Below, one piece after another: positions 8,231 through 28,385 of a stretch of 64,000 nucleotides of DNA. This stretch comes from Rahnella inusitata (lineage in GTDB: Bacteria; Pseudomonadota; Gammaproteobacteria; Enterobacterales; Enterobacteriaceae). The stretch's first letter is position 1; each line of letters starts with the position of its first letter. Position numbers and translations under genes: made by a program. The notes below the pieces were generated by a model, which was given only the letters and a program-made list of their open reading frames with translations, was not told the origin of the DNA and ran no database searches. The stretch spans positions 186,001 to 250,000 of the forward strand of contig NZ_JYDE01000015.1 of assembly GCF_003263515.1 (NCBI RefSeq), read 5' to 3'.

Positions 8231-8812
8231 ATGCATGACCCTTTGTTAAATACGCCAACACCAGAGAAAGCGCTGGAAGTACAGCGTGAGCTGATGAGCG
8301 CCATGGCCGTTGGCGACCGTCAGGCATTTGAACAGCTTTACCGTCTGACCTCCCCGAGGCTTTTCGCCGTCGCATTACGTATGCTGCGGCGGCACGCCTG
8401 GGCGGAAGAAGTCTTGCACGACAGCTACATCACCGCGTGGAACCGGGCGGCGTCTTACAACCCCGCCCTCAGTTCCCCGATGACCTGGCTTACCCACATT
8501 GTCCGCAACCGCGCCATCGACTGGATGCGCGGGCGCGACAACCAGACAGACGAACTTGACGACAGCGTGGCGGACCTTTACGTCGAACAAAGTGATGAGC
8601 CCCTGCAACGTTTGCAGCAGGACAGCGATGCCAAAATTCTGGCCAACTGTCTGGCGCACCTTCCCGCAGAGCAAAGACAAAGTCTGATCCTGGCCTATTA
8701 TCAGGGTCTGTCTCATGGCGAGGTTTCATCTCATTTACAACAACCGCTGGGGACGATTAAAAGCTGGATCCGTCGCGCCCTGGAACACTTAAAGAGCTGC
8801 GTCGGACTATGA
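8231..8812 (+). CDS. ECF RNA polymerase sigma factor (SigK-like)
   Basis: Sigma-70 family ECF factor of 193 residues. Region 2 covers about residues 30-100, including the AEEVLHDSYITAWNRAASYNP and MTWLTHIVRNRAIDWMR segments. An acidic linker follows, then region 4 at about 135-190 with the helix-turn-helix YQGLSHGEVSSHLQQPLGTI and KSWIRRALEHLKSC. The stop overlaps the anti-sigma start (ATGA), showing coupled translation as usual for sigma/anti-sigma pairs. The recognised promoter is probably upstream of its own operon and of the fasciclin gene. Confidence 0.92.
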   Translation: MHDPLLNTPTPEKALEVQRELMSAMAVGDRQAFEQLYRLTSPRLFAVALRMLRRHAWAEEVLHDSYITAWNRAASYNPALSSPMTWLTHIVRNRAIDWMRGRDNQTDELDDSVADLYVEQSDEPLQRLQQDSDAKILANCLAHLPAEQRQSLILAYYQGLSHGEVSSHLQQPLGTIKSWIRRALEHLKSCVGL

Positions 8813-9486
8813 AAAGCAGAAGCCATTATCATGCTGCACTCGCGGCTGAATATGCGCTCGGCACCTTGCGCGGCGCAGCAAAAATTCAGTTCGAGCAAAA
8901 AATGCGTGACGACCCTGAACTGGTGGCCGAAGTGGCCCGCTGGCAGGAAGCCTTCACGCAGCTGGATAACCACATTATGCCGGTGATCCCCCCTGCCTCG
9001 GTGTGGAAACGCATCCGACATAATCTGGATCTACAACCGGTTAAACGCACGGTAACGCCGAAAACGCCCGTTCGCGGTTATCTCGGCTGGGCGCTGGCCG
9101 CAGGTCTTGCAGCATTGCTGCTGATCCCGCGTCTGCTGGTGCAACCTGCCGCGCCACTGCCGGTAGCCATACTTGCCAGCAGCACCGGTGCTCAGGGCGG
9201 GCAATGGGTGGTAAGCGCTGACATGAGCACGCGCAGCCTGATGCTGACGCCGCTGAATGCCCAACGCGTGGCGGCAGACCGCAGCCTCGAACTCTGGGCT
9301 ATTGCGCCGGGGGGCAAACCGCAATCGCTTGGGTTACTCAATACCCAACAACCGACACAGCTTACACTGGCCGCCAAAATGCCGGATCCGGGCTTTACGC
9401 TGGCGATCAGTATTGAACCGCACGGTGGCTCTCCGACCGGCCAGCCGACTGGCGCGGTACTCTACAGCGGGGCTCTGGCACTCTGA
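8809..9486 (+). CDS. RskA-like transmembrane anti-sigma factor
   Basis: Protein of 225 residues. The N-terminal cytoplasmic part (about 1-88) has the features of an anti-sigma domain, including LAAEYALGTLRGAAKIQFEQ and the W-x-x-x-F motif. One membrane helix at about 90-110 follows, then a periplasmic RskA C-terminal domain (about 115-225) with LELWAIAPGGKPQSLGLL and the FTLAISIEPHGGSPTGQPTG motif. It should hold the upstream ECF factor at the membrane until released by proteolysis on an extracytoplasmic signal. It overlaps the sigma gene by 4 bases. Confidence 0.9.
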   Translation: MKSRSHYHAALAAEYALGTLRGAAKIQFEQKMRDDPELVAEVARWQEAFTQLDNHIMPVIPPASVWKRIRHNLDLQPVKRTVTPKTPVRGYLGWALAAGLAALLLIPRLLVQPAAPLPVAILASSTGAQGGQWVVSADMSTRSLMLTPLNAQRVAADRSLELWAIAPGGKPQSLGLLNTQQPTQLTLAAKMPDPGFTLAISIEPHGGSPTGQPTGAVLYSGALAL

Positions 9487-11036: not shown

Positions 11037-11813
11037 ATGGCACGTAGTGGCTTGGAAGTACAAAAAGCGGCGATTAAAGCGCTCTTTTTAAGGGAAATCA
11101 AAACCCGTTTTGGTAAGTTCAGACTTGGCTACCTGTGGGCAGCATTAGAGCCTATGGCGCATATGCTGATTTTGTTGGCTATTTTTGGCTATATCATGCA
11201 CCGCACCATGCCAGATATTTCTTTTCCGGTATTTTTGATCAACGGTATTATTCCCTACTTCGTCTTTAGCAATATCACCAACCGGTCAATTGGGGCAATA
11301 GAGGCCAATCAGGGATTATTCAATTATCGTCCTGTTAAACCCATTGATACAATTCTCGCCAGAGCGATATTAGAGACCGTGATTTATGCAGTTGTCTATG
11401 TATTGCTGATGGCCATTGTCGGGTTGCTCGGTGAAGAATTTGAAGTCACTAAACTCATTACACTTGTTATGGTATGGGTGCTGCTGGTTTTATTCTCCTG
11501 CGGCATTGGCCTTATTTTTATGGTTGTCGGCAAAACCTATCCTGAGACTGAGAAATTCCTGCCCATTCTCGTCAAGCCACTCTATTTCATCTCATGCATC
11601 ATGTTTTCGCTCCACAATATCCCGAAAGAATACTGGCCTTATTTATTGTGGAATCCGATTGTTCACGTCGTGGAACTCAGCCGTGAGGCAGTTGTTCCCG
11701 GTTATATCAGCGAAGGCGTCAGTTTAAATTATCTGGCTGGCTGTACGTTGGTGGTCTTATTCATCGGCCTGGCCCTTTACCGCAATCGTGAAGAGGCGAT
11801 GCTGACATCATGA
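11037..11813 (+). CDS. kpsM: Capsule ABC exporter permease KpsM
   Basis: Inner-membrane permease of the ABC-2 family exporting lipid-linked group 2 capsular polysaccharide, 258 residues with six predicted helices. The sequence from MARSGLEVQK to the end (ALYRNREEAMLTS) is very close to remembered E. coli K1/K5 KpsM, including LFLREIKTRFGKFRLGYLWA and RPVKPIDTILARA. It is the first gene after the ops element and overlaps kpsT by ATGA. It works with KpsT, KpsE and KpsD in the trans-envelope exporter. Confidence 0.97.
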   Translation: MARSGLEVQKAAIKALFLREIKTRFGKFRLGYLWAALEPMAHMLILLAIFGYIMHRTMPDISFPVFLINGIIPYFVFSNITNRSIGAIEANQGLFNYRPVKPIDTILARAILETVIYAVVYVLLMAIVGLLGEEFEVTKLITLVMVWVLLVLFSCGIGLIFMVVGKTYPETEKFLPILVKPLYFISCIMFSLHNIPKEYWPYLLWNPIVHVVELSREAVVPGYISEGVSLNYLAGCTLVVLFIGLALYRNREEAMLTS

Positions 11814-12475
11814 TAAAAATTGAGAATCTGACTAAATCTTACCGTACGCCTAAAGGCAGACATTACGTCTTTAAGGATCTTAATGTCGAACTCCCCTCGG
11901 GTAAAAGCGTCGCCTTAATTGGCCGTAACGGGGCAGGTAAATCGACTCTGCTACGTGTTATTGGCGGTATCGACCGCGCTGATTCAGGCTGCATTCATAC
12001 CGATAAAACCATTTCATGGCCTGTCGGACTTGCCGGTGGGTTTCAGGGCAGCCTGACCGGGCGAGAGAACGTCAAATTTGTCGCACGTCTCTATGCCAGA
12101 CCTGAAGAACTCAAGGACAAAGTCGCCTTTGTCGAAGAGTTTGCAGAACTGGGTAAATACTTTGATATGCCTATTAAAACCTATTCTTCCGGCATGAAAT
12201 CACGACTTGGTTTCGGCCTGAGCATGGCGTTTAAATTTGATTATTATCTGGTAGACGAAGTCACAGCGGTTGGCGATGCGAGGTTTAAGCAGAAATGCGC
12301 AGACCTCTTTAAAGCCCGCCATAAGGAAGCCAGTTTTCTGATGGTTTCTCATAGTCTGGGATCACTGAAGGAGTTTTGTGATGTGGCGTTGTTTATTGGC
12401 AGAGATAATAAAGTTAAATATTTTGAATCAGTAGCAGATGCCATCGAAACGTATAAGACTGACGAGGGCATATAA
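11810..12475 (+). CDS. kpsT: Capsule ABC exporter ATPase KpsT
   Basis: ATPase subunit of the capsule exporter, 221 residues. Walker A GRNGAGKST is at about 38-46, the signature YSSGMKSRLGFGLSMA at about 128-143, and Walker B YYLVDEVTAVGD around 150-161, followed by the H-loop in MVSHS. Translationally coupled to kpsM. It lies at the junction where composition changes: the next genes are clearly AT-rich. Confidence 0.97.
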   Translation: MIKIENLTKSYRTPKGRHYVFKDLNVELPSGKSVALIGRNGAGKSTLLRVIGGIDRADSGCIHTDKTISWPVGLAGGFQGSLTGRENVKFVARLYARPEELKDKVAFVEEFAELGKYFDMPIKTYSSGMKSRLGFGLSMAFKFDYYLVDEVTAVGDARFKQKCADLFKARHKEASFLMVSHSLGSLKEFCDVALFIGRDNKVKYFESVADAIETYKTDEGI

Positions 12476-12574: not shown

Positions 12575-13681
12575 ATGAAAAAAATTAGAAAGTTCATAAA
12601 AAGCCCCGGTGTATTTTTTCGGGACTACTTTAACAAAAAATATCCAATCATAAGAAATGAAATATTGTGCCCTGAGTTAGAGGAGAATATTCTACTTCGT
12701 CACGATCTGGCGATGGAAGAACTCATCCATATCAACTTCCCGATAGACGTTGTTTTTACATGGGTTGATGATTCAGACCCTATATGGAAAAAGAAATATC
12801 AGCACTTTAAATCAGTTGCGGAAGCGGGATCACTAGGTAACTTTGCTACAGATACCGCAAGATTCAGCAATCATGATGAGATCAGGTATTCAATTAAAAG
12901 CATTGAGAAGAATATTCCCTGGGTAAGAAATATTTTTATAATCACTGACGACCAAAGACCTGCGTGGCTTAAATCTGATGATAAGATCAGAGTTATTGAT
13001 CATAAAGATATTATTGATAAAAAATACTTACCCACTTTCAATTCTCATGTAATAGAAGCTCATCTTCACAAAATTCCGGATCTCGCTGAACATTTTATCT
13101 ATTTCAATGATGATGTATTTGTAGCAAGACCTCTTCCTCCAGGGCATTTCTTCAAAAACAGAGGAATATCATCTCTATTTTTATCACAAAAAAGCCTGAG
13201 ATCTATGCAGGAACGGGGAACGAATACACCAACCTTGTCAGCATCCTTGCAAGCTTCAGATACTTTTGAGAGAGATTTCAAAATCTTAATCGATACGCCT
13301 TTAGTTCATACGTATGTCCCCCTTCGGAAAAGTATCTTTGAGGAAGCATGGCGTCTGTATGAGACGAAAATCAATGGCTTCTTATCAAATAAATTTAGAA
13401 CAAACCACGACTTGAACTTAGCAACGTTTTTTGTGCCCTGGCTTAGCTATATTACCGGTAAGGCCACACCGGCGAGAGACATTTGTTATTACTTCAATAT
13501 CAGATCTACCGCAGCGAGAAGTTACTTTAAAGCGTTAAAACAGGCACGCAAAGACGGTGTTCTCCCCCACTCTTTTTGTGCTAATGATTTCAACACGCAG
13601 AAAGCTTCGCTAGAAAAATATCAACTCGTCTTAAGTACAGCACTTAAATATCACTTTGAATCTGAGAATGAAAATGTTTAA
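12575..13681 (+). CDS. Stealth-family capsular polysaccharide phosphotransferase
   Basis: Protein of 368 residues. Stealth conserved region 1 is [13 protein letters not shown] (about 57-69). Region 2 runs from [16 protein letters not shown] and [12 protein letters not shown] through [10 protein letters not shown] (about 95-185). Region 4-like sequence with [15 protein letters not shown] follows near 275-300. Stealth enzymes (for example CslB, SacB, XcbA) transfer sugar-1-phosphate from UDP-sugars, making phosphodiester links in capsules. The ATG at 12575 is preferred over an upstream TTG at 12563. The N-terminus ([18 protein letters not shown]) has the same charged/aromatic motif as the next protein. 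AT-rich coding, typical of an acquired serotype region. The sugar transferred is unknown. Confidence 0.85.
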
Positions 13682-16600
13682 TAGAAAACTGAAAAAATTA
13701 ATTCGCGATCCTAAATTGTTTTTTCATGATCTGATAAAGAAACACGAGAAAAGAATTAAAACACTGAAAAAAATCCAAATTAAAGGCGGTTATAAATACA
13801 CAGTAGTATCAGCTGTATATAATGCGGAAAATTATTTAGATGAATTTTTCAAATCTCTGACATCTCAATCTTTATGTTTCAAAAAACACATTAAAATAAT
13901 TGTTGTTGATGACGGTTCGCAAGATAATTCTTACAAAGTAATAGAAAAGTGGTGCCGCAAATACCCAAATAATATCTTCGGGATGCAGAAAGAAAATGGT
14001 GGACAGGCGTCCGCGAGAAACTTAGGTTTAACAAAAGTTGAAACTGAGTGGGTAGGTTTTATAGACCCAGATGACTTCGTTAACAAAGAATATTTTGCAA
14101 CTATAAACTCTCATATTGAAAATAATAAAACTATTGATATAGTAGCCTGCAAAATGATTGTTTATAAAGAAGAGAGCAAAAGCTTTGCTGATACTCAACC
14201 TCTGAAATTCTGTTTCGATAAAAAAGAAACCTTAAAAAATTGTAATGATCTTGAAGAACTTATTCAACTATCTGCTAGTTCAGCTTTGTTTAAAACTAAA
14301 ATAATTAAAGAAAATGAAATAACATTTAATCATGAAATTAAACCAAACTTTGAAGATGGTAAGTTTGTAATTGATTACATGAGTAATTGTGGTGGGAAAA
14401 TAGCATTTATAAATCAGGCCAATTACTTTTATAGAGTTCGTGAGGACAACAGTTCAACGACTAATACACAGTGGGAAAAAGTTGAAAAATATAGTAATGT
14501 TCTTGAATACGGATTACTCGCGATGCTCAAGGACTACCATCAAAAAAATAATGGTAAGGTTCCAAGATTCGCTCAACGCACAGCATTATACTTTTTAATA
14601 CAGTACTATAATAGAATTCTTAACAATGAATCATCAATAAGTTTTTTAAACGATGTACAGAAAAAGTCACTCCTTACGCATCTTGATAATATCTTTAATT
14701 ATATTGATGACAATGAGATTTTAAAATTTAATTTACTTGGGGCTTGGTTCTTTCATAAAGTTGGCATGCAAGCGCTGTTCAAATCTGGTGCTGGATATAA
14801 CTTCCAAATTGCATACATTAAAAACTTTGATACATTTAAAAAAGAAGTACTAATTTCATATTTTTGTAGCAGCCCAAATATAGAAGAAATTAAAATAGAT
14901 GGTCAGCAAATTATACCAAACAATATAAAAACAATTAAACATACTTTTTTGGGAAGAGTGTTTATTGAGCGGTTAATATGGGTTAATTTCAGCGATACAA
15001 AACAAAAATTGTCTATTAAACTTCACAAAAATACCGATATATCTGTAATTGGGCAAAACTTCAAAGGCTCTGTATCTTTAGAAAAAGTCAAAAATATATT
15101 TTTCTCTAAATCACCAACTAAACATGAAGATAGGAATACTTGGCTCTTTATGGATTCCGACACTAGAGCCGATGATAATGCAGAACATCTCTATCGTTAT
15201 GTTAGAAAATATCATCCGGAAATAGATTCAGCTTTTGTGTTGAGAAAAAGTTCAGAAGACTGGGGTAGATTAGTAAATGAAGGATTCAATCTAGTAGAAT
15301 TTGATACACCGGCCTTCCAGAGTTATTACGAAAAAGCTGGTGTCCTTTTAAGTTCACATATCGATAAGTGTTTTACTCAGTACAAAGGTAAATATTCATT
15401 AGCAAAGAAGAAATTTATTTTTCTTCAACATGGCGTTACCAAAGATGATATTTCTTCATGGCTTAATAACACATCTCGAATAGATGGTATTTTAACTTCT
15501 ACTTATCAAGAGTACGCTTCATTAAGTAATCCACATTCCCCATATAATTTTGATCCAAGATGTGTAGCGTTAACTGGCATGCCACGTTATGACAATTTGG
15601 TTTCAATTAGTAAGACTAGTAGTAAAACAAATATTCTTATAATGCCTACATGGCGCAGAGATCTAGTTGGTAAGACTTTAAAACAAACATCTGGAAGAAG
15701 TTATAACCCAGAATTGAAAAACTCTGATTACTTTATATATTGGCAAAATGTATTATCTTCAAATGCGCTAAGAAAAATCGCATCAGAAGGGAAATTGAAT
15801 GTTGTATTTATGCCTCACCCTAACTTAGTCCCTTACATCAATGACTTTTCAATCCCAAGTTACATCGAGATCATTAAATGCAATGAAACTTCTGTGCAGG
15901 ATTTGATTTCTAAAACAAAACTATTATTAACAGACTACTCTTCAATAGCATTCGATGTCGCATTATCTGGTGGCGAATGTATCTACTATCAGTTTGATGA
16001 AAATCAAGTGTTTTCAGGAATGCATACATACTCTCGGGGCTACTATAGTTATAAAAATGATGGTTTTGGCCCTGTGGTCTATAATGAAGTTGACCTTTTT
16101 GATCAAATCACAGCTATTTTAAATGGAAAGTTGAAATCTTCTTTTACCGCCCCAAATAGTGTTTTTTCCTTCATTGATGAAAATAACTGTGAAAGAGTCG
16201 TATCCGCGATTTCAAAAATAATTTCACCGGAACAAGTTACTGATAAATCATCTGTCATCTATGAATATGCAAATATGGCTATGGCAAATGAAAACTGGGA
16301 ACTAGCACTTAGCAGATGGTTTATGCTTATTACTGAGCCACATGAGGTCTATCACACAGAAGCAAAAACTAATATTATTAACCTTCTTCTTAAGCTAAAT
16401 AAATTCGCTGAAGCTATTAATTTATTCCCAGAATTTTTTGGCGAAAACATCGATGAATTGACACCAGAACTAATTATAATTTTAGCAAAAATTAAGATGA
16501 TTAATTATAATTGGTCAGATGCTGTTTCAATATTAGAATCTAAGTTAATTCTTTCTAGAAGTGAAGAGATTTTAATTTTGCAATGCCTAGCAGAACTAAA

Positions 16601-17486
16601 CGATATAAATTCATTCGAGGCTATTTTAGGCAAGCATGAGAATAAAATACAGGATGAGTCTGAAGTATTATGTACTTCGTTAAAATATCTATGCCTAAAA
16701 GAATGGATAGAGTTAGCAGAGTATCTATCTGCTAATATCTATTTATTCAAGGAAAGTGAACACATCGAATTCAAACCCTATTTATTATTATCTCGTGCCT
16801 ATCAGGAGATTGGTGATTTAGACCAAGCTAATATTTGTCTCCAGCAGCAGGAGTCATTTGATAAAGGTAATATATTACTTCGCTATCAAATTGCAAGATT
16901 GGCCAATAAACGTAAACAATGGAATAAGGTTACATCCCAAATATTAGCTACTAATATTTCTTTAGATATTATCCCGCTAGATTTACTGACAATTTATATT
17001 CGCGCCTTACGTTTCCAAGGTAAACAACTGGAAGCTCTTCAAATTATTGATTCATTACCAAAAACAGCTCCTATAAATAGTGAACTTCTAATTGAAATAG
17101 CTGAATTGCATTTTGAACTTAAGAACTGGAATCTCTCGGCAGATGTTTGGATGAAATTAACTCAAGAGTGTGACCTCTCATATTACAAATTAGCATTTAT
17201 TTATCGCAGATTAGGTATGATTGAAGAAGGCCTGAGTTTATTACTGAAGAAAGGACTCCGTTCACCTATAATGCTCGAAGAATGGATATTACGTGCTGAG
17301 CTCGCTGAATTAGTAGGGGAATGGGATGAGGCGACACACAGTTGGTCATCGATCCTACGCTATCATTCAGAGAATGCACCAAACTATTGCTGGGAAAGAC
17401 TTAGTAACTCAAGGATCTTAAGTAATATGAGTTTATTATCAGGTTCAATTTCTAACCGTGATAACAACAATGTAAATCGCATGTGA
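13674..17486 (+). CDS. Multidomain capsule polymerase: GT2 + TagF-like + C-terminal helical repeats
   Basis: Very large protein of 1270 residues, probably the main polymerase of this capsule. An N-terminal RDPKLFFHD motif is followed by a GT-A family 2 glycosyltransferase (about 38-300) with Asp79-Asp80 in VVDDGS and a DPDD metal motif at 131-134. A middle domain of the CDP-glycerol:poly(glycerophosphate) glycerophosphotransferase (TagF) type (about 490-840) has the two expected catalytic His, His586 in LQHG and His715 in MPHPNL, and the [11 protein letters not shown] motif. From about 860 to the end lie repeated helix pairs resembling TPR units. The ATG at 13674 overlaps the previous stop by 8 bases; ATG 13668 and TTG 13656 are alternatives. 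AT-rich. It should add alternating sugar and polyol-phosphate residues; substrates are inferred from family only. Confidence 0.85.
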
Positions 17487-17519: not shown

Positions 17520-19160
17520 ATGTCGAAAATAGAAAACAAACATTATTTCAAAGATTACCATGTACAATATGTGTTTTCCCCTGCAAAACAAGATAGAAAA
17601 CATCTATTGGTTGTATTTTCTGGTTTTGGCCTTGATTATGATTTTTACGGGGCTACTTTAGATGGTTGCAGATCTAATATCCTCTGGATCAAAGATGAAT
17701 TCAAAGGAGGTAACACATATTACTTATGTGTTAACCAAGATTTCACAATAGAAGAAGCTGTTATAGACCTGATAAATACAACGTTGGAAAAATTACTTCT
17801 TACTGAAAAACAATGTACTTTATCGGGTTTTTCAAAGGGAGGCAGTGCTGCTTTATATTATGGTCTAAAGTATAACTTCTCAAACATTCTGACTTCATGC
17901 CCTCAAATTAAAATTGGGAGTTATCTAAAAAATAACTGGCCATCTAAAGTTGAACACATCTTCGGAAAGCATTCTACAAATGAAACGGTAGATTTCTTTG
18001 ATTCGTTAATACCAAAATTATTAGAAACTAAAGATATTTCACAAAAAAACATATATTTTATTACCTCAATCAAAGATGAGCAGTATCCTGACCAAATAAA
18101 ACCTTTTTTGTCATACTATATCAAATGTAATAATTTCAATATAATAGATACTAATTCAACGTTAGCCTGGCAACATAATAAGATTACTAAATATAATATA
18201 CCTATTATCTTATCCATAATTTACGCTCACGGAGAGGGAGTTTTTCCTCATTTTGGATATGTTTCAAATGGAATCCCCGAGTATAATGACATAACGTATC
18301 AAGAAGAATTAAAAACCCTTCAAAGTAGGAAAGAAGTTGTCGCAAAAATAAATAAAGTTAAGCTCGACTCAAGTATATTTCACCTCGATGGAATAGGATT
18401 AATTAAAGGCTACGAGTGTAATTCGTATGAGAAAATAAAACATAAAGTGATATTTTCCTCAGATACTAAATCTTATGAATATCCTCTTGGTAAAATCCTG
18501 AATGAAGATTTATCTTATCAGTTTTTTGAAAGTGTATTTTGCGACTATACTGCGGCACAAGTCACCTCTATAGGTCAGAAAGGGATTGATATATCTGCTT
18601 TATCTGAAGGAGTCTATGAGGTTAAGTGCCTAATTGAAGTTAATAAGTTATCTATTATCGAAAATTTTGAGTTTGCAAATAACTCTAACGTTCAAAGTAC
18701 TTACGATAATAAAATAATAAGTATATTTAGTAAAACTGGGAAAATTTTTATTAGTGTTAATAATCTAGATAAAATAAATGAACCGAAAGTATTTTCTGTA
18801 GAACAGAAATGGCTCCGTGATGGGAAACTTCACTATGAAGGGGTGTATGTAATCAAAGGAGTGGAGATAAATAATTGGGGTGATGCTGGTTATTATATAA
18901 AATTCATTTCTGATGGATGTACAATAATAAAAAAAATAGGTTTGTCACATCGTGAATCTTTAAATAAATGTTTCTCTGATCATTTCGGGCTTTATTCTAA
19001 GGCTTACTATTCTACTATTGGGAATGAAGGTATTTATATTAATGACCTACCTGATGGTATATATAAAATAAAAATAATCTTGAACAAGCAAGGTTTGATT
19101 TTCGAGGAAGACACTGGCGATCTTCTTGAGATCAAAAATAATAATTATGCAATCAAGTAA
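17520..19160 (+). CDS. Alpha/beta-hydrolase-like capsule-region protein with duplicated C-terminal domain
   Basis: Protein of 546 residues, not recognised with certainty. The first 260 residues look like a serine hydrolase: beta strand LLVVFSGFG near 30, nucleophile elbow GFSKGG with Ser105, and a later Asp/His region (TSIKDEQYPD, LAWQHNK). No signal peptide or membrane segment is visible, so it should be cytoplasmic. Residues about 281-378 and 435-530 are two diverged copies of one beta-rich unit (compare GIGLIKGYE...GIDISALSEGVYEVK with GVYVIKGVE...GIYINDLPDGIYKIK). Asp2-like acyl-transfer enzymes and XcbB/CpsF-type capsule proteins are possible relatives. Its location between polymerase and acetyltransferase suggests capsule modification. 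Strongly AT-rich. Confidence 0.6.
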   Translation: MSKIENKHYFKDYHVQYVFSPAKQDRKHLLVVFSGFGLDYDFYGATLDGCRSNILWIKDEFKGGNTYYLCVNQDFTIEEAVIDLINTTLEKLLLTEKQCTLSGFSKGGSAALYYGLKYNFSNILTSCPQIKIGSYLKNNWPSKVEHIFGKHSTNETVDFFDSLIPKLLETKDISQKNIYFITSIKDEQYPDQIKPFLSYYIKCNNFNIIDTNSTLAWQHNKITKYNIPIILSIIYAHGEGVFPHFGYVSNGIPEYNDITYQEELKTLQSRKEVVAKINKVKLDSSIFHLDGIGLIKGYECNSYEKIKHKVIFSSDTKSYEYPLGKILNEDLSYQFFESVFCDYTAAQVTSIGQKGIDISALSEGVYEVKCLIEVNKLSIIENFEFANNSNVQSTYDNKIISIFSKTGKIFISVNNLDKINEPKVFSVEQKWLRDGKLHYEGVYVIKGVEINNWGDAGYYIKFISDGCTIIKKIGLSHRESLNKCFSDHFGLYSKAYYSTIGNEGIYINDLPDGIYKIKIILNKQGLIFEEDTGDLLEIKNNNYAIK

Positions 19161-19238: not shown

Positions 19239-19958
19239 ATGTATCTAAAAAATCATTCTGATATTGCAAATAATATTATTAATTATTCAGACAAAGAAAA
19301 TGATAAAATTAAAGTTCTTTTTTTTGGGAAAAATAATAAATTAACTGTCCATCCCGAGGCTAAAATAGCAGGCACTACCATCCGGTTTGATTGTGATGAT
19401 GGTGTTTGTACTATTGGAAATAATAGTTTCAACGGATTCATTCGTATTGGACAGGGATGCTCCGTAACTATAGGTGACCAAGTCACATGCACCAACGGAT
19501 GCTATATTTCCACAGCAGAGAATACAAGTGTTACTATAGGTAATGATTGTATGATAGCATCGGCCAATGAAATACGTACAGATGATGGACATCCGATTTT
19601 TGATATAATCTCTGGTAGGAGAATAAATCTATCGCGTTCAATAACAATTGGAGATCATGTCTGGCTTGCAGCTAAATCAATTGTTCTCAGTGGATCATCA
19701 ATTGGCAGGGGTAGTGTTATTGGTTTGGGAAGTATCGTCAAAAGTGCTATTCCAAATAATAGCATTGCAGTTGGAGTACCTGCTAAAACAATCAAAAAAA
19801 ATATCGCTTGGGAGAGACCGCATCTAACTTTGGTTAAACCTTTTATAAAACCTGACTCCTCATTTATTACTAAATCACAATATTGGGATTTAACCTGTGA
19901 GGAGGAACCTGTAGTTATCAAAAAAAAGAGTATCTTTTCTAAGATTTTTAGATTTTAA
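19239..19958 (+). CDS. Hexapeptide-repeat (left-handed beta-helix) O-acetyltransferase
   Basis: Protein of 239 residues with many [LIV]-G-x-x-x-x hexapeptide repeats from about residue 40 to 190, for example VCTIGNNSFNGFIRIGQGCSV, SVTIGNDCMI and SITIGDHVWLAAKSIVLSG. The DDGHPIFD segment holds the probable catalytic His. The C-terminal coil with IAVGVPAKTIKKNI is typical of the NodL/WbbJ/CysE-like acetyltransferases. It probably O-acetylates a capsule sugar using acetyl-CoA. Last gene of the rightward serotype region, separated by 75 bases from the convergent kps operon. AT-rich like its upstream neighbours. Confidence 0.85.
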   Translation: MYLKNHSDIANNIINYSDKENDKIKVLFFGKNNKLTVHPEAKIAGTTIRFDCDDGVCTIGNNSFNGFIRIGQGCSVTIGDQVTCTNGCYISTAENTSVTIGNDCMIASANEIRTDDGHPIFDIISGRRINLSRSITIGDHVWLAAKSIVLSGSSIGRGSVIGLGSIVKSAIPNNSIAVGVPAKTIKKNIAWERPHLTLVKPFIKPDSSFITKSQYWDLTCEEEPVVIKKKSIFSKIFRF

Positions 19959-20033: not shown

Positions 20034-21026
20034 TTAGTTACTAATTTTATTATCATTCCCGTTATCTGATATTAATTTTCCTCCTGCCACAAACCTATTC
20101 CCCTCCACCAAATTATCATCCGCATAATCGTTAAAATACTTCCTGCTTCCATCTCTCGGCTTATCTCCACAATCAAATCCTGATAAGTCCCGGTTCTGCC
20201 GGGATGCCAGCCAGATGCCTACGGGCTCATTCACAAACGTATTATTGCGGATGACGTTATGGTCGCTATGCTGCCAGCGGATCACCGATTTGCCGGTGCT
20301 GAAATGCTCGCCGCAGTTCTTATACAAAAACACGCCCCCTGCCCCGTTGGATTCGAAACGGTTGCCTTCGATAAGGTTATAGGCCGATGAATCCACGGCC
20401 AGCCCTTCGCGTTTACCCTTGCCGAAACTCTTGTGTCCGTTATTGATGATTTGGTTACCGACAATGGCGTTGTTGCGCGATGAATGTTCCAGATAGATGC
20501 CGGACATATAGGAGTCGCGAACGACTGAGTTCTTTAGCGTGGAATGGGTGACGTAATCATCAAAATAAATCCCTACGCGGCCACTGCCGGTGACTTCAAC
20601 GTTCTCGAGGTTCACACGGGTCGGCGTGCGCCGGTAGTTCTCAGCGTGGTTGGGGCTCAGTTTGTTGGCGGCGATGTCGGAGGTGATGCAGATACCGCTG
20701 TGCGTATAGTTTTGAATTTTGCAGTTTTTGATGGTGACATCAGACAGCGGTTTGCCTTTGCTGTTAACAACAATACCAAATGACTTTTCGTTACGGCCAT
20801 CAAGGATTGCGCCACGGCAATCCAGGGTCGTATGGCTACGCGTTATCATTATCTCCTGATGATAAACGCAGGATGGCTGTAACGAGACGTGGCCGTTAAT
20901 CACCGGCACTTTGCATTCACGTGAATCAGAGGCAGAAGCGCGGTCGGCGCAGGCTGAGAGGGATAAAGGCAGAACAACCATCAGAGAGAAAAATGCACAG
21001 GGTGTAAACTTCAGGGTTTCTCGCAT
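20034..21026 (-). CDS. Right-handed parallel beta-helix lipoprotein of the kps operon
   Basis: Protein of 330 residues with a lipoprotein signal (lipobox LSAC near residue 26). The mature protein is rich in PbH1/NosD-type coils: repeated N-x-[IV]-x-x-N-x-[IVF] units such as HNVIRNNTFVNEPVGIWL, YNLIEGNRFESNGAGGVFLY and NAIVGNQIINNG. The fold is that of polysaccharide lyases, epimerases and pectinase-like proteins, but no catalytic site could be assigned. The start is 22 bases after the kpsS stop on the same strand, so it is probably co-transcribed with kpsFEDCS. E. coli group 2 loci have no such gene. It could trim, bind or anchor capsule in the outer membrane; this is a guess from context. 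Confidence 0.75.
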   Translation of the reverse strand: MRETLKFTPCAFFSLMVVLPLSLSACADRASASDSRECKVPVINGHVSLQPSCVYHQEIMITRSHTTLDCRGAILDGRNEKSFGIVVNSKGKPLSDVTIKNCKIQNYTHSGICITSDIAANKLSPNHAENYRRTPTRVNLENVEVTGSGRVGIYFDDYVTHSTLKNSVVRDSYMSGIYLEHSSRNNAIVGNQIINNGHKSFGKGKREGLAVDSSAYNLIEGNRFESNGAGGVFLYKNCGEHFSTGKSVIRWQHSDHNVIRNNTFVNEPVGIWLASRQNRDLSGFDCGDKPRDGSRKYFNDYADDNLVEGNRFVAGGKLISDNGNDNKISN

Positions 21027-21048: not shown

Positions 21049-22335
21049 TCAGGAAAGCTGTCGCTTAATGTAGTTAATTACCAGTTTCTCACTGATAAAT
21101 ACCGGCTTGTATTGGGAGTCGGCAATGGCCGCTTTGTCCTTCTTATACCCGCCATAAAACACCGCATTAATCTGCGTATTCTTCAGCAAGTATAGCCGGA
21201 ATTGTTTGAACAACTTCATATCAGGCGCGAATCCTGAGCACCAGAACTGGTTCAGATGTCCCTGATAGGTAATGCCTTTGATGTCATACAGTGCGTTGCC
21301 CATCACCTTCAGCGGCTTGTTGTGGATCAGTGCTGAGATCCCCGCCGTGCTGTTGATGGTAACCACCGCTTTTGCATGTGTGAGCAGCTCCGGCATCGGC
21401 AGGTCATGCACGTAGATCACCCGATTGGCGATGCCGTATTTTTTGCCCAACTGGCGGATCAGCGGCGCGTATAACCGATGTCCGCGATCCATCGGGTGAT
21501 GCTTAATCACCAGAAACTCGGTTGAGGCCGCTTTCTTAGCGAAGGAATGCATCACTTCATTAATGTAATCGCGCACATCTTTATACGGGCTGTGGTTGCG
21601 GATCTGGCTGTCGTTGTACACCTGCAAAATCGCCAGGAAGTAACGCTGATCCAGCCCGGTCTGTAACTGTTTGAGGACATTGCGCTGGTCAAAAGCATAC
21701 AGCTTCTTACGCCAGGCTGCGCGGATCCAGCAGCGGGCCTCGTACCACGGCGAAAAGGATTTATGGTGGCGGTATTTTGGGAACTCGTTTCGGTGACGCC
21801 AGCCCGCCAGATAGTAAGCGGTCGCATGCCAGTAGCGTGAAGCCGCGCTTGGCTTGAGATGTTCGATCTCCGGCATGGTCATCTCTGGCAGACGACGATA
21901 AAACTCGGCATCGCGCGGCAGGCCGGAGTAAGCATTCACACCGTTCTGTTCCAGCGTGATGTAGTGCGGACGCAGGTAGCCTTCTTCGAACGCCAGGAAC
22001 CGGATGCCTTTGGCTTGCGCCCAGCGTTTAGCGGCCTGATGTAAAGGACGACAATCCCCGAAACACACGATGGTATCGAAGTCGTATTCCTGCCAGGTCT
22101 CTTTCAGCCAGGTCGGAAACTCATTCGGGGTCTGCTGGTACAAGCGGTATTCACGATTGCGCGAATACCGCCTGTCGCCGCCGTTAAAGACGACGTTCAC
22201 CGCTTCCCGCCCCAGAGACTCAAGCCACTGTGCTAAATCGCTGAAAAAGGGTCCCATCGGGCCCTGCAACAGCAGATATTTTTTTCCAGAAAGTAATGTC
22301 GTCAGCGCCTTACTGTCCATTTTCATCCACACCAT
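21049..22335 (-). CDS. kpsS: KpsS, initiating Kdo transferase for the capsule lipid anchor
   Basis: Cytoplasmic retaining Kdo transferase of about 428 residues. In group 2 capsules KpsS adds the first Kdo to lyso-phosphatidylglycerol. Family segments are FLAFEEGYLRPHYITLEQNGVN, the KHHPMDRG motif and the VVTINSTAGISALIHNKPL motif near the C-terminus. Three in-frame ATG codons (22335, 22326, 22320) are possible starts and none has a strong ribosome site. It follows kpsC after 22 bases and precedes the beta-helix lipoprotein gene. Confidence 0.94.
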   Translation of the reverse strand: MVWMKMDSKALTTLLSGKKYLLLQGPMGPFFSDLAQWLESLGREAVNVVFNGGDRRYSRNREYRLYQQTPNEFPTWLKETWQEYDFDTIVCFGDCRPLHQAAKRWAQAKGIRFLAFEEGYLRPHYITLEQNGVNAYSGLPRDAEFYRRLPEMTMPEIEHLKPSAASRYWHATAYYLAGWRHRNEFPKYRHHKSFSPWYEARCWIRAAWRKKLYAFDQRNVLKQLQTGLDQRYFLAILQVYNDSQIRNHSPYKDVRDYINEVMHSFAKKAASTEFLVIKHHPMDRGHRLYAPLIRQLGKKYGIANRVIYVHDLPMPELLTHAKAVVTINSTAGISALIHNKPLKVMGNALYDIKGITYQGHLNQFWCSGFAPDMKLFKQFRLYLLKNTQINAVFYGGYKKDKAAIADSQYKPVFISEKLVINYIKRQLS

Positions 22336-22357: not shown

Positions 22358-24397
22358 TCACTTAATAAATGTAACCCGAATCAGCATGAGCAATTTTCTG
22401 TAATAGCGGACTATCCTGCCCGCTTTAATTCTTGTGAACTGCAATTCAGCCCGTGGCGTTGCAGCAAGTAATTCAACCGCCTGCTCCGCTAAAATGGGCT
22501 CCCGACTTTGCGGGTTGATATACGACGGGTAGGCAATCAGCGCCTGATAAACCACATCGTCTAACCGGAGGCGGCGCGTACGGCGTGAACATGAATGTTC
22601 ATCCTGCGTCAGCCCCCATCCGGCATAAAATGGCATGCCGTAACACACCACTTTTTTACCGTGCAATAAGGCTTCAAATCCTGACAGTGAGGTCAGCGTG
22701 TGCAGCTCGTCGGCGGCCTGAATACACTGAATAATGTCTGCATCTAACGCCTGACTGTCTGCCCAGCGGCGGACATCCTCCTCTGGAATCTGCCCCTGCC
22801 GGTTCCCCACCAGAACGTCCGGGTGCGGTTTATAAATGATGTAGGCATCCGGATTACGCTCGCGCACGGTGCGCAAAAGCCCGCCATTGGTATTCACAGA
22901 TATCGTACCGGTCAGGATCGACGCATCGTCCTCGACCTGCCCTGGTACCAGAATCACGGTCTTGCCAGAAGCCCCGGCGGGTAACGTGAACGCCGCACCG
23001 AGGTTATATTTACTGACTTTGCTGGCAACCAGCGTCTCGCGCAGCGCGGCAGCGCGTTGCTGCTGATACGCCGTCAGGTCGCTGTTACCGAGCAGCAGCT
23101 CGAGATCGCTTGGGCGTGTGGCATCGTAATAAATACCGGTTTTATCCAGCACCAGCGAAAGCGGCGGATGCAGGTCAGAGCCCAGACCGGCCGAGCGCAG
23201 AAAACCGTCTTCCATACGCCATTGCGGTAACTGGTGTTGCTCTGCGTTGGCAGACCACTTCGCCTCACCTTTTATGCCCCACACGACGCAGGCGGACTCA
23301 CCGGCAAAGCGTTTACTGAAATTCACTTTGTTGCTTTGGGTGCGCAGAAACGGTGCCAGAATACTGCGCTTCCATAGCGTCAGGCCGGGTGACCACAGGC
23401 GCCCTGCCCGCTGCTGGTGATGCTGGCGTTGCATCAGCAGCCAGTTCAGGACATCAAAAATTATGCCACGCTGACCGTTCACCGGGTTGATATAACGCGA
23501 GTAACGCAAACACGCCGCACTGAACAACTCTTCGAGAGTGGCTGCGCCGCGTCGCGCATTCAGCGTTGCCGATTGCGCGTGGCGATCGTCCGTCAATCCC
23601 CAGCCGGCATACCACGGCTGGCCAAATACGCTGACCGGTTTGCCGGCGATCAGCGCCTCAAAGCCGTAATTAGAGGTCACCACGTACACGCGGCTGACCA
23701 GACGCAGCAGCGACTGCGGGCTGACATCCGTCGCCAGCAATCTGATGCGCGGTTGCTGTTTCGCAAGTTGCGCAATCTGACTGAAATATCCCGCTTTTTT
23801 ACCCTGAAGTACGTCCGGGTGAATCTTCACCCAAATCTCGGCTCCGGGGTTCTCCGCTATTGCGGCCTGCAACATGCTGTCGAACTGTTCTGCTCCGGCG
23901 TTGCCGTAAACCACGGCCATATCACCAAAGGTCTGATCGACCACCAGCACCGCGCCCTGCGGCGGCTGCGTGAATGTGCACGCCGGTGCCTGGTTGTATT
24001 TGGATAAATCCCCGCCGACGATCATCTGCATCGCCTGACGTGCATCTTCATGCAATAACTGGTTCTGTTCCCGCTGGTGAATCAACGTCTCCAGCGAGCT
24101 TGGGCGCGAGGCGTCGTAATACATCCCCTGCGTATCCAGCACCATCGAGAGTGGCGGCGAACCGGTCACTCCCAGCCCGAGAGAACGGATAAACCCGTCT
24201 TCGAGGCGCAGCACCGGCAGTCGCTTTTTCTCCGCCAGCACAACCGCTTTGGCGCCGGTCGGGCGATAGCCCCACACGGCAACCTGCGTGATATCTTCCG
24301 GCAGCGGCCGCACCAGCGACACCTTGCAGAAAGGCTCACCGAGGAACTGCTCAAGATGCGGGATACGTGCGATCCCGCCAGAAAAAATCCCAATCAT
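22358..24397 (-). CDS. kpsC: KpsC, dual-domain Kdo transferase building the poly-Kdo linker
   Basis: Protein of 679 residues with two homologous halves. Each half contains the signature [14 protein letters not shown] / [14 protein letters not shown], a [16 protein letters not shown] / [16 protein letters not shown] segment, a [13 protein letters not shown] / [13 protein letters not shown] segment and a [18 protein letters not shown] / [18 protein letters not shown] segment. KpsC extends the Kdo started by KpsS into the beta-Kdo linker. Its start codon overlaps the kpsD stop (TAATG-type overlap), so the two are coupled. Confidence 0.96.
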
Positions 24398-26073
24398 TAC
24401 AGGGTCAGAACCACTTTCGCGGCCACGGCCAGCTGGTAAAGAATGGTCGAGATGCCACGCGTGACTTCGATGTTCTTCGATTCGTACTTCGGCAGAACCA
24501 TCAGCTCGTCGCCCGGTTGCAGCGTTTTCACATCTTCCGCATTCAGCGCTTCGCCGTTCTGCTTGATCAGGATGACTTTGGAGTTACCCGCTTTCTGGGT
24601 GAATCCACCGACTTTCTCGATGTAATCTTCCGGGCTGAGACCTTTCTGCCAGCTCACCGCGTTCGGGAACAGCACTTCGCCGTGGATCATAACCAGCGAG
24701 GTTTTCTCAGGAATGTTGATGACGTCGCCATCTTCCAGAATCACCTGATTCAGGTTGTCTTCGCTCAGTACCACTTCACCTTTCGGTACCACCTGACGCG
24801 CTTTGTTAACAAAGCGGCTGACCAGCTGGGCTTCCTGCATACGCAGACGGCCTTCTTCCTGAGTGGAAGACTGGGCAGACAGCGAGGCTTCTTCGAGTTT
24901 TTGCAGCGTCACATCCAGCATCTCTTTCTGGCGCAGGGCAACCGAGCGGCGATAAAGCTGGATAGCGTTAATCTGCGACATGCTGTTAGTGCGAATTTTT
25001 GGTAACAGCTGGCTCATGGTCGCGCCGTAAGGCAGTACCACGGCGTGTTCGCCGGAATGAGCGCCTTCGATACGCACCTGAATGGTTCCCGCATAGCGGT
25101 CAGAGCTGACGATCAGTTTGTCGCCATCCTGTAATGAGCGGCCAGGTGCAGAACTCAGAGGGTAATACTCGCTGCGCTTCATGCTGCCCTGCTGGCGAAT
25201 GATGGTCATGTGGGTTGCGCCCGGCTTCGGACGTGCCCAGCTCAGCGCTTCGCTGACCGGAATGGTGCTGTCGCGAAATTCGAAGTCGTAGCTGTTGAAC
25301 ACGTCGCCCTCTACGCTGAACGTATGCTGACGCGGGCCGACCACAATGGTGTCGCCGTCGGAGAACTGCGAAAGACGCAGATCGCCGTTAAGCAGGAAAT
25401 CATAAAGATTGATACGGGAACGGACGCGGTCGTTGTGCTTGACCACAATATCCACGTAGCTGCCGCGCTCGGTATCCACCCCGCCCGCTTTGCTCAGATA
25501 CGAAAGCAAGGAGTCAGAGGCCACGCCGCCGTACAAGCCAGGATTAGTGACATAACCGGTCACAAACACTTTTACCGGCTGCGCCTGAAGCAGTGAGGCG
25601 TACACATTCACGTTCGCCTGATACACCTGTTTCACCTTAGTGGTGATCACGCTGTTCAGCTGGCTGTTGGAAATCCCGGCCACTTTCAGCGGGCCGACGT
25701 TTGGCAGGAAGATGTTCCCTTTCGGGTCAACGGTCAGCGCACCGTCGAAATTGAACGCGCCCCACAGGCGGATCTGCACCTGATCGCCCAGCCCGATGAT
25801 GTAGTTCGGGTTAAAGCCGATGCTTGCGCCGTTGTCTGACGCGGCGCTGCCGTTAAACAGCTGTGCGCCAAACATGCGGCTCATCACCGCCGAGGCCACC
25901 GGACGCGGCGAATCATCAAAACCGCTGTCAGACGTGGTCTGCTGAGATTGTCCCGACAGGAATCCCGGCAACGGCGCAGCGCCGGTCATATTCGGATCGG
26001 CATTAATCCCGACGGCATGGGCCTGTGTTAACTGGCAGGCAAGTAAAATCAAAATGGACTTCAATAATTTCAT
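24397..26073 (-). CDS. kpsD: KpsD, outer-membrane polysaccharide export protein
   Basis: Protein of 558 residues, the same length as E. coli KpsD, with a signal peptide (about 1-20, ending AHA). The polysaccharide export domain begins around [18 protein letters not shown] and is followed by SLBB domains with the pattern [30 protein letters not shown] and, near the C-terminus, [13 protein letters not shown]...[13 protein letters not shown]. KpsD completes the periplasmic and outer-membrane part of the exporter with KpsE. In operon between kpsE and kpsC. Confidence 0.96.
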
Positions 26074-26127: not shown

Positions 26128-27291
26128 TTAATCTTTGTGGTCATCGATGACCGCCAGCAATAATTTGATCGTTCCGAACAGCAGGCAGCAGATCAGCAGC
26201 CAGCTGGCGATCATGTAAGGCGTATTCGGGAATTTGGATTCCTGCGGCAGTTGCGGTGAACTGATCACCGACAGCACTTTCAGTTTGCGCGCCGCTTCAA
26301 CGCGGGTCTTTTCAATTGACGTCAGCGTGAGTTTGTAGAGATCGGTATCGAACTGAACTTTGGCTTTAATCTCTTCAAAATCCACCGCCATGCTGTTGAG
26401 CTTGTGGCCGTCCGGCGCGGTGATTTTGCTTTTTTCCTGATCGATCTGTTTGCCCAGTGACGTAATCGCATTCTGGGCGCTGATGACCTGCGGTGCATCT
26501 TCACGCAGATAGGTCAGCAGATTACGTAACTCCGCCTCCATCTGAATTTTCTGGCCAACCAGCGTATTCACCAGCGTGGTGGCCGCGATAGCCTGCGCTT
26601 CAGGATCGAGAATGTTGTTCTGGTTCTGGTAGGCGAGTAACTGCGTTTTGCTGGTATTCAGACGCGCACGCGCTTGCAGCATTTCATTTTCAGCAAACGC
26701 CTGCTGGTCGCGGGCGATTTTATGCGAGATTTCGTTGATGAAACGTTCTGACTCTTTCAACACCGCTTTGTTGAACTGCTCGGCAAATTCAGGGGTAAAA
26801 CCCTGTGTACCAATCGTCAGCAGGCCGGTTTTGTCATCGTAAGTGACAGAGATACGGTCGCGGTAATAATTGAGGAACTGTTCACGGGTGGAATCTTTTG
26901 GCAGGTGATAGAAGAAATCCAGGCCGCTCTGACCAAAGACTTCATGGAAATTAAGTTGTTTATCCAGCACCGCGAGCATATCCGGAGAGTTGATATACTC
27001 TTTTAAATACATTGCGTCTTCAGCCGTACTCGGGTTCGCGGCACCGAGCAGCAAACCGACATTCAGGCTGCTGCCGCTGATGTCATTAGAACTTTTGATA
27101 GCAACGGTGGATTCACTGAGATAACGCGGATGACTGAAAATCAGCAAATAGACGATCAGCAACGCCATCGGCAAGCCGATGATGATTTTACCCAAATTCT
27201 GGTTGAGCGTAGCCAAACTCAGGAGAGGAGATCGACGAACCCTGGCAATGTGTTCACCGGGCCATGCGGACTTCAATTTTTCAATAAACAT
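26128..27291 (-). CDS. kpsE: KpsE, capsule export inner-membrane/periplasmic adaptor
   Basis: Polysaccharide co-polymerase-like protein of 387 residues. TM1 spans about residues 33-53 (GKIIIGLPMALLIVYLLIF). A long helical periplasmic region contains coiled-coil segments around 190-310, and C-terminal TM2 spans about 357-380 after the PQLPQESKFPNTPY segment. It links KpsMT in the inner membrane with KpsD. A 54-base gap separates it from kpsD. Confidence 0.95.
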   Translation of the reverse strand: MFIEKLKSAWPGEHIARVRRSPLLSLATLNQNLGKIIIGLPMALLIVYLLIFSHPRYLSESTVAIKSSNDISGSSLNVGLLLGAANPSTAEDAMYLKEYINSPDMLAVLDKQLNFHEVFGQSGLDFFYHLPKDSTREQFLNYYRDRISVTYDDKTGLLTIGTQGFTPEFAEQFNKAVLKESERFINEISHKIARDQQAFAENEMLQARARLNTSKTQLLAYQNQNNILDPEAQAIAATTLVNTLVGQKIQMEAELRNLLTYLREDAPQVISAQNAITSLGKQIDQEKSKITAPDGHKLNSMAVDFEEIKAKVQFDTDLYKLTLTSIEKTRVEAARKLKVLSVISSPQLPQESKFPNTPYMIASWLLICCLLFGTIKLLLAVIDDHKD

Positions 27292-27398: not shown

Positions 27399-28385
27399 TT
27401 AGTCGAAGATTCGAACCAGCCCGGCGACGTTATTCTCGTTATCGGTCACCAGCAGCACCGAGACGCGGTGCTTTTGCATCAGTGTTTCTGCGTCGGTGAT
27501 CATCATGTCCACCGGCAAAGTCAGCGGCGAGCGGGTCATCATGTCTGCAGCACAGGCATTGTCGAGCTGTGCACTTTTTTCCATATAGCGGCGTAAGTCG
27601 CCGTCGGTAATAATCCCGACCAGCTGCTGCTGTGCATTATTGACCGCCACCATTCCCTGACAGCCACAGGTAATGGCTGAAATCACCTGACGAAAACCGG
27701 TTTCCTCCCCAATCGTGGGAACATGAGTTTGCATGACGTCCGAAACACGGGTTAGCAAACGGCGTCCGAGAGAACCACCAGGATGATAACGGGCGAAATC
27801 AGTGGGCAGGAATTTACGCTGACGGATCAACGCGACGGCCAGCGCATCGCCAATTGCCATGGTCAGCGTGGTCGACGTCGTCGGTGCCAGATTATTCGGG
27901 CAGCTTTCACTTTCCATCATCAGCTCAAGCGTGGCGTCGGCGTGCTTCGCCAGCGTCGAGTCGCTGTGATTGGTAATCGCAATAATGCGGTTACCAAACT
28001 GGCGCAGTGACGGGATTAATTTAAGAATTTCATCGGTTTCCCCGCTGGCTGAAATGAGAATCAGCAAATCGTACGGGGTGATCATGCCCAAATCGCCGTG
28101 GAAGGCTTCAGCGGGATGAATAAAGAAACTTGGAGTACCGGTAGACGCCAGCGTCGCGGAAATTTTTCGTCCCACATGGCCGGATTTACCCATACCCGAA
28201 AGAATGACATGACCTTTGCATTCGATGATCAGCTTAAGCGCTTGCTGATATTGCTGGCTGTCGAGCTGCGTAGAAAGGCGATGCAGTGCTCCGGCCTGTT
28301 CAGAAAGCGTACTGCGTACTGATTCAATCAGACCGGGTTGTATAGAAGCGCCCGTTATGCCGCCAACTACCTGATTATCTGCCAC
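27399..28385 (-). CDS. kpsF: KpsF, D-arabinose-5-phosphate isomerase
   Basis: Converts ribulose-5-phosphate to arabinose-5-phosphate, the first step of Kdo synthesis for the capsule linker. 328 residues: an SIS domain (about 45-180) with SGMGKSGHVGRKISATLASTG and LISASGETDE, then a CBS pair (about 205-328) with GIITDGDLRRYM. First gene of the leftward operon kpsF-E-D-C-S, with a 107-base gap to kpsE. No kpsU (CMP-Kdo synthetase) follows kpsD, so the housekeeping KdsB presumably supplies CMP-Kdo. Confidence 0.96.
   Translation of the reverse strand: MADNQVVGGITGASIQPGLIESVRSTLSEQAGALHRLSTQLDSQQYQQALKLIIECKGHVILSGMGKSGHVGRKISATLASTGTPSFFIHPAEAFHGDLGMITPYDLLILISASGETDEILKLIPSLRQFGNRIIAITNHSDSTLAKHADATLELMMESESCPNNLAPTTSTTLTMAIGDALAVALIRQRKFLPTDFARYHPGGSLGRRLLTRVSDVMQTHVPTIGEETGFRQVISAITCGCQGMVAVNNAQQQLVGIITDGDLRRYMEKSAQLDNACAADMMTRSPLTLPVDMMITDAETLMQKHRVSVLLVTDNENNVAGLVRIFD

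Follow-up and report, generated by a model that had tools for sequence, protein, structure and literature searches.

What does a very large capsule polymerase make, and what holds it and its partner enzymes at the place of capsule assembly? These questions are raised by a locus in a 64,000-nucleotide stretch of the Rahnella inusitata contig NZ_JYDE01000015.1 (positions 186,001 to 250,000 of the forward strand; "the window" means this whole stretch). The locus encodes a 1270-residue polymerase (13674..17486, + strand) and, directly upstream, a Stealth-family protein of 368 residues (12575..13681, +), whose gene runs with its 3′ end into the beginning of the polymerase gene. Both enzymes carry the same kind of short basic N-terminal peptide, here called the tag. 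From sequence comparison we consider it likely that the polymerase is of the type of Cps1B from Actinobacillus pleuropneumoniae and makes a group 2 capsule by two-step synthesis from sugar and sugar-1-phosphate, with a Stealth starter and a shared address tag.

The polymerase was identified by its open reading frame (ORF), Pfam domains, alignment and profile matches. The 1270 codons are open from the ATG at 13674; further in-frame starts lie upstream at 13656 (TTG) and 13668 (ATG). A sequence-only reading of this DNA had proposed a bifunctional GT-A and TagF-like capsule polymerase in a kps locus, and we found both domains over their cut-offs when each was searched for, with kps genes as neighbors. 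Glycos_transf_2 (PF00535) scored 89 bits (cut-off 23.3) and marks a GT-A core at residues 43-190 (13800..14243, +). C-terminal to it, Glyphos_transf (PF04464) scored 104 bits (cut-off 22.1) at residues 485-847 (15126..16214, +), the only PF04464 match in the Rahnella genome. The catalytic residues were where that reading had placed them. In a 42-member alignment (A5) of the window protein and 41 relatives, picked from 67 candidate ORFs, Asp79 and Asp80 were each kept in 40 members and, within the DPDD motif at 131-134, Asp131 in 40, Asp133 in 41 and Asp134 in 42 (L042, a near copy of Neisseria L041, was omitted from the alignments). His586 (15429-15431) and His715 (15816-15818) of the TagF-like domain were present in 42/42. 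The first of them stands in a QHG motif in 41 of the 42, the window protein among them, and a TDYSS motif was found in the same domain. The family profile matched TagF (3l7i, 3.2e-30), TarL (8va1) and Cps3D (8qoy, 1.4e-7), in agreement at the sequence level with a TagF fold of the middle domain, and its GT-A part matched the K4 chondroitin polymerase 2z86. The folds are assigned, by these comparisons, as GT-A and TagF-like.

The C-terminal region of about 400 residues (approximately residues 860-1250; 16251..17423, +) is the most weakly supported part of the three-part architecture. The claim that it consists of TPR-like helix pairs gained support from profile positions 1055-1208, which matched CTPR3, other consensus (designed) TPRs and BBS4 at E values of 2e-5 to 8e-4, whereas single-sequence Pfam matches stayed below cut-off (TPR_19, 21.6 bits against 25; TPR_14, 20.6 against 23.5). 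The further suggestion that these repeats set oligomerization agrees with the TPR region of Cps1B, which does so (PMC5974469), and may hold for the window protein.

Two architectures of TagF-like capsule polymerases, GT-A/TagF-like and TagF-like/GT-B, were described by Litschko et al. in 2018 (PMC5974469). The former, with Cps1B, CslB and Ccs2 as members, produce poly(oligosaccharide phosphate) with beta linkages, and the latter produce poly(glycosylpolyol phosphate) (PMC5974469). A TPR domain is found at one end in the majority of group 2 TagF-like polymerases, not in all. Cps1B of A. pleuropneumoniae serotype 1 has 1246 residues, D133xD135, H587, H717 and a C-terminal TPR region; its residues 32-858, with the TPR region behind 858 removed, are active yet monomeric (PMC5974469). 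The window enzyme shares its domain order and approximate length, and has DPDD, QHG and the second His at nearly identical positions, Cps1B being known here by residue numbers and primers only. The mutagenic primers of cps1B encode F-I-[A]-P-[A]-D-F-L and then L-Q-[A]-G-I with K-D-D-L-S-Q-W-F, motifs as in the window protein (PMC5974469); the second primer pair is labelled H743A, a residue number of Cps7D, which we took as a labelling slip. Unlike Cps1B, the window enzyme has Stealth and acetyltransferase genes for neighbors, in a kps locus of the Rahnella type. Cps3D and Cps7D also combine a TagF-like domain (profile match 1.4e-7) with a TPR region and a group 2 capsule, but their TPR is N-terminal, their sugar domain is GT-B, their donor is CDP (cytidine diphosphate)-glycerol and their motif is of the glycerol-3-phosphate (Gro3P) type. 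The Staphylococcus epidermidis TagF (3l7i) has the TagF-like fold and both His, and the profile matched its N-terminal part too. Unlike the window enzyme, it polymerizes wall teichoic acid in a Gram-positive bacterium by transfer of glycerol phosphate, and it has no N-terminal tag, as the match starts at TagF residue 2, profile position 43. Wherever it can be compared, the window enzyme is, judged by its motifs, a Cps1B-type GT-A/TagF-like polymerase, with the TPR region weakly supported. The fusion is not new; an enzyme of these three parts, with identical catalytic residues, was assayed in 2018 as Cps1B, and E. coli K2, an enterobacterium, was already on the 2018 list of bacteria with teichoic-acid-like capsules (PMC5974469). 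The polymerase is a known architecture, with one more member in Enterobacterales.

Which polymer would such an enzyme make? The sequence-only reading predicted a teichoic-acid-like polymer of sugar and polyol phosphate, in which the TagF-like domain would use CDP-glycerol or CDP-ribitol. PF04464 is named for CDP-glycerol enzymes, and the related TagF/GT-B enzymes Cps3D and Cps7D do work in this way (PMC5974469, PMC11666461). Such a product fits this sister architecture, whereas the window enzyme has a GT-A domain. In addition, the WHG motif of Gro3P polymerases reads QHG in hexose-phosphate transferases (Litschko et al. 2024, PMC11666461). The window protein has QHG instead of WHG. The E. coli CFT073 enzyme (L173), presumably of the K2 type, has WHG, a Glycos_transf_1 domain and a TagD-like gene nearby. 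We found no stand-alone glycerol-3-phosphate cytidylyltransferase (TagD-like) in the Rahnella genome, where the best match to the TagD model scored 44.6 bits and lay inside a 493-residue frame. Of the 27 genomes or records searched from relatives, 22 had matches, the best at 59.2 bits and none over the cut-off. The positive control, the CFT073 protein, reached 127.8 bits. Because this too is below the TIGR01518 cut-off (165.4), the cut-off alone is uninformative, and the argument rests on the score gap and the frame length. The Rahnella genome has one full-length IspD; a second match covered only model positions 2-43, in a 479-residue frame. The QHG motif, the GT-A architecture, the absence of a stand-alone TagD-like protein and the single full-length IspD point to a polymer that would have sugar-1-phosphate bridges, not polyol phosphate, and we rejected the polyol product as first choice. 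It gains something from a relative, Psittacicella hinzii (L064), whose contig with a GT-A/TagF polymerase also encodes an IspD and short-chain dehydrogenase/reductase (SDR) fusion of the CDP-ribitol-synthase kind and a tagged 420-residue PF04464 protein; polyol phosphate may therefore enter some such capsules. For the window polymer we regard it as very unlikely. In Psittacicella (L146:4438-7151) the tagged PF04464 protein adjoins the IspD+SDR protein, upstream of the polymerase.

The neighboring Stealth protein is a probable sugar-1-phosphate transferase. Pfam found Stealth_CR2 (141.6 bits) and CR1 (38.4 bits) over cut-off, CR3 at 22.2 bits against a cut-off of 24.2, and no match to CR4; the Stealth_CR2 match was the only one in the Rahnella genome. 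A profile from 26 of 28 relatives (A6) matched five solved sequences, the best being CpsY (2.5e-53) and GNPTAB, named as phosphotransferases. All matches began at residue 54 or later and therefore behind the tag. The protein is probably a second sugar-1-phosphate transferase and would most likely be the transition transferase, beginning the chain on the anchor made by KpsS and KpsC, poly-3-deoxy-D-manno-oct-2-ulosonic acid (poly-Kdo). One could also imagine that it makes the bulk polymer, or that the two enzymes make two blocks of one chain, with the TagF-like protein as primer. Stealth-family capsule polymerases are described in parts of the literature as making phosphodiester-linked polymers alone, and three genomes (G400, G440 and G505) each showed a single tagged protein (E<=0.01), a Stealth. 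Against such a role, the window partner, with 368 residues, is shorter than the Stealth with a 549-residue frame in one Neisseriaceae genome, and in vitro, relatives of the TagF-like protein carry out both steps of polymerization themselves (PMC5974469). We consider these exchanged roles unlikely and retain the Stealth protein as the probable starter.

The tag is the new part of the finding. It occupies 26 basic, amphipathic residues of the polymerase (13683..13760, +), and the corresponding stretch of the Stealth protein (12578..12655, +) shows the same motif, approximately RKxxKLxRDPxLFFxD, within the first 30 or so residues of both. We counted it by a regular expression in the first 60 residues of the ORFs in the collected loci, excluding L027-L029 as copies of L035, L036 and L064. 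It was present in 34/40 Stealth and 40/92 GT-A/TagF proteins, in 1/37 GT2 and 0/9 TagF-only proteins, and in just 3/3269 other ORFs: two "sugar transporters" of plasmid capsule loci, KpsE-like by position, and one ORF beside a Campylobacter polymerase. After length and identity filters, 33 of the 34 and 38 of the 40 peptides remained. A tag profile (A4; 26 positions, 39 rows), built from the same loci in which it was then counted, gave 77 matches at E<1e-3 in 5011 ORFs, and 20 column-permuted profiles gave 0 each. Among 29 available Stealth proteins, 27 were chosen by length (300-420 residues) and not by tag, leaving out L036 and L044, the latter starting behind the tag; in all 27, Lys5, Pro10, Phe13, Asp16 and Pro23 were invariant. 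A description of this motif was not found in our searches of open-licence papers.

The distribution of the tag was surveyed at several levels. In 25 genomes and three plasmid records chosen for carrying the pair, A4 gave 61 rows at E<=0.1, 58 of them below 1e-5. Fifty-four of the 58 belong to a Stealth or a polymerase (one polymerase gene being broken) and four were other proteins in or near capsule loci; one of the three weak rows was a polymerase. Recovery of the pair in these genomes was built into the design, unlike the scarcity of other matches. Also independent of the design are the finds in Neisseria L041 (C-terminal), Kluyvera L145, Psittacicella L146, the Pasteurellaceae and Neisseriaceae genomes outside A4, and the E. 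coli loci. A polymerase-only profile (A2) matched three of 274 sampled genomes of the class at E<=0.01, our own included and the other two weakly. A4 matched 18/82 Neisseriaceae genomes at E<=0.001 and 36/121 Pasteurellaceae genomes at E<=0.01, many of the latter from a chance match: 20 of the 45 Pasteurellaceae rows (E 0.005-0.01) were treated as chance, being partial matches to one conserved protein of about 400 residues (13 inspected). The tag peptide therefore accompanies capsule loci of this kind. It was absent from the polymerases of 18 actinobacterial loci (0/18). Some Actinobacteria (L090, L098, L106) have at least two GT-A/TagF-like ORFs per locus, some L106 frames overlapping, with neither tag nor Stealth in the stretch examined. 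In Pantoea rwandensis (L056:8001-10852) the polymerase gene looks broken, with the tag in a 43-codon frame of its own; there are relatives with an intact gene. Loci with Stealth and TagF-like genes also occur on plasmids (L002, L003, L004, L005, L006) of Citrobacter freundii, Citrobacter sp., Klebsiella oxytoca and E. coli ST131; the C. freundii one is a conjugative IncF plasmid with blaTEM-1 nearby.

Tagged polymerases and Stealth genes were found together. An alignment-query search, of which the best 80 of 146 relatives were kept, gave 78 loci from named genomes. With a "core" tag profile, which includes eight C-terminal tags, a Stealth gene lay within 1.5 kb of the polymerase in 27/35 loci with tagged and 6/43 with untagged polymerases (Fisher test, 1.5e-8, which treats loci as unrelated and uncut).

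The tag was not confined to these two families, nor to N-termini. Neisseria sp. 83E34 and N. wadsworthii have it at the end of a protein of 755 residues (residues 732-752), which in 83E34 has GT2 and Capsule_synth domains. Four Pasteurellaceae ORFs with frames of 1215-1276 residues carry it 31-32 residues before the C-terminus; the one of these that was compared matched Bcs3 with 808 bits (C-terminal pieces only). It also stands at the C-terminus of two DUF6716 transferases, and of a GT2-type protein from a Neisseriaceae genome (L191). N-terminal cases, besides the Psittacicella PF04464 protein of 420 residues, include the Neisseriaceae Stealth with the 549-residue frame (L195). Eight E. coli group 2 loci were examined out of 1800 records with a match, and the core profile found the tag in two of them. 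It stands close to the start of a 336-residue protein in one and towards the C-terminal end of a GT/Capsule_synth protein of 748 residues in the other. Both matches held with A4 alone (3.4e-6, 3.6e-5). Three other E. coli C-termini (L175, L176 and L178) look tag-like by eye (K-K-x-x-K...F-x-x-D) and were not counted, as the profile misses them; L178 is KrkA-like (260 bits to 9yfx), and these ends are possibly diverged tags. A protein without Pfam match (L113, 332 residues) has a weak C-terminal tag. A second kps locus of Kluyvera cryocrescens (L145:5181-10357) encodes an untagged 800-residue PF04464 and Glycos_transf_1 protein, followed by two tagged proteins, one Stealth-like by eye (366 residues) and one without Pfam match (318 residues).

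What might the tag do? Published truncations suggest that catalysis proceeds without it. Cps1B without residues 1-31 is active (PMC5974469), and comparison by eye with L057, a relative from Actinobacillus, places its codon 32 (KHLPVKYE) directly after the tag. Removal of the last 53 residues leaves Bcs3 active and raises the protein yield fourfold (PMC10299916). The tag of the Bcs3-like Pasteurellaceae proteins lies within the stretch corresponding to these 53 residues, and the own end of the Haemophilus influenzae type b protein is outside the solved construct. As truncated Cps1B and Bcs3 keep activity, we read the tag as an address tag that may hold assembly enzymes at the membrane or the export complex. 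Three terminal modules are like it in being terminal, removable with activity kept and thought to bind membrane. Besides that of Bcs3, these are the C-terminal helices of KrkA (residues 1023-1113), removed for solubility with the enzyme still working (PMC12887879), and the terminal amphipathic helix of KpsC (657-675), whose removal alters product lengths (PMC10148158). Each end is treated as probably membrane-binding, and no common motif is named in the passages concerned (PMC10299916, PMC12887879, PMC10148158); unlike the shared tag, these modules were described one by one. In contrast, the polysialyltransferase of Neisseria meningitidis B, tagged or not, was inactive after every C-terminal truncation tried (PMC2169525).

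The tag may alternatively be an unspecific amphipathic helix that binds membrane, arose more than once and has no shared partner. Its helical moment is highest at 100 degrees, the 26-mers carry a mean net charge of about +7, and joint column shuffles reached the observed mean helical moment in only 14/1000 (Stealth) and 3/1000 (polymerase) trials. The ends of KpsC, Bcs3 and KrkA would be counterparts. E. coli K1 NeuS, tagged or not, associates with the membrane independently of all other kps and neu products, whereas the K5 synthase is reported to need KpsC for its membrane location (PMC2408645). We also compared the Stealth and polymerase tags of the same locus, and they were no more alike than shuffled pairs. 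A private pairing was thus not seen, which would fit one conserved receptor or plain membrane binding. Plain binding does not readily account for the five residues invariant in the 27 Stealth proteins chosen by length, nor for the failure of permuted profiles of the same composition (0 matches in 20 trials, against 77). The fixed Pro, Phe and Asp suggest a specific receptor and the amphipathic pattern suggests the membrane. We give the unspecific helix somewhat less than an even chance. For the proposal that a portable tag, approximately RKxxKLxRDPxxFFxD, is shared at the N- or C-terminus of unrelated enzymes of capsule systems dependent on ABC transporters (Stealth, GT-A/TagF, Bcs3-type, GT2 and Capsule_synth-type fusions, DUF6716 and possibly KpsE-like) and addresses them to one receptor of the assembly complex, we put the chances as evenly balanced.

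In the mechanism we propose, the Stealth protein would start the chain on the poly-Kdo anchor. The GT-A domain would add hexose in beta linkage from a uridine diphosphate (UDP) sugar, and the TagF-like domain would then add hexose-1-phosphate, with His586 as base and His715 holding the donor pyrophosphate; alternation of both steps would yield poly(oligosaccharide phosphate). The TPR-like region probably serves oligomerization and helps the enzyme to hold the chain. The basic amphipathic tag, which one relative in the literature does not need for catalysis, may keep the enzymes at the membrane or export complex. Several points weigh against this scheme. The Psittacicella contig shows polyol-type genes beside such a polymerase, and no gene that names the sugars was recognized in the window capsule locus. 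The lack of own-locus matching between the two tags gives no sign of a joint partner particular to the pair, and the association of Stealth genes with tagged polymerases takes no account of locus kinship or cuts at contig ends. In addition, the candidate transition transferases of A. pleuropneumoniae serotype 1, Cps1A and Cps1C, were inactive on Kdo acceptors in vitro, for which the authors named construct or conditions as possible causes (PMC11666461).

The surrounding genes place the polymerase in a predicted ABC-transporter-dependent (group 2) capsule locus. On the + strand, the order is KpsM, KpsT, Stealth, polymerase, Asp2/XcbB-like protein and acetyltransferase. The KpsM-like permease (11037..11813) scored 189.7 bits to the KpsM model, under the cut-off of 300, and the KpsT-like ATPase (11810..12475) has an ABC_tran domain and is called KpsT by position. 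Downstream, an Asp2/XcbB-CpsF-like protein (17520..19160; 47.5 bits to XcbB_CpsF, under the cut-off of 125), for which a role in acylation is a guess, is followed by a hexapeptide-repeat acetyltransferase (19239..19958), likely for capsule O-acetylation. The − strand carries, in order, a beta-helix protein, a KpsS-like beta-Kdo transferase (21049..22335; 396 bits to the KpsS model, under the cut-off of 600), a KpsC-like beta-Kdo transferase (22358..24397; Capsule_synth in four stretches), a KpsD-like polysaccharide export protein (24397..26073), a KpsE-like protein (26128..27291; by position, Pfam giving no match) and a KpsF-like sugar-phosphate isomerase with SIS and CBS domains (27399..28385). 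The NosD/beta-helix protein (20034-21026, −; TIGR03804, PF13229) adjoins kpsS and could act on the capsule; an R. bonaserana ORF of like length (335 residues; L027:6335-7342) stands at its place. A fasciclin protein, an extracytoplasmic function (ECF) sigma factor and an RskA-type anti-sigma factor lie in a row at 7606-9486 (+), just before dps and the kps genes, and both Rahnella relatives (L027, L028) have ORFs of the same lengths in the same order. A single-sequence search of genome contigs gave no match, and no DNA relative was found at blastn level in E. coli genomes. Among the best 80 of 146 relatives, the nearest locus was that of Ewingella americana (58% in the best segment).

The polymerase extends a known family in Enterobacterales, and its expected polymer is corrected from polyol phosphate to sugar-1-phosphate. 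The tag carries more weight. A peptide common to unrelated enzymes would offer a simple handle on the unsettled question of how soluble capsule polymerases reach their lipid anchor and exporter. It could explain why one end of several capsule enzymes had to go before soluble or well-yielding active protein was obtained, and it marks candidate capsule enzymes among proteins without an assigned family.

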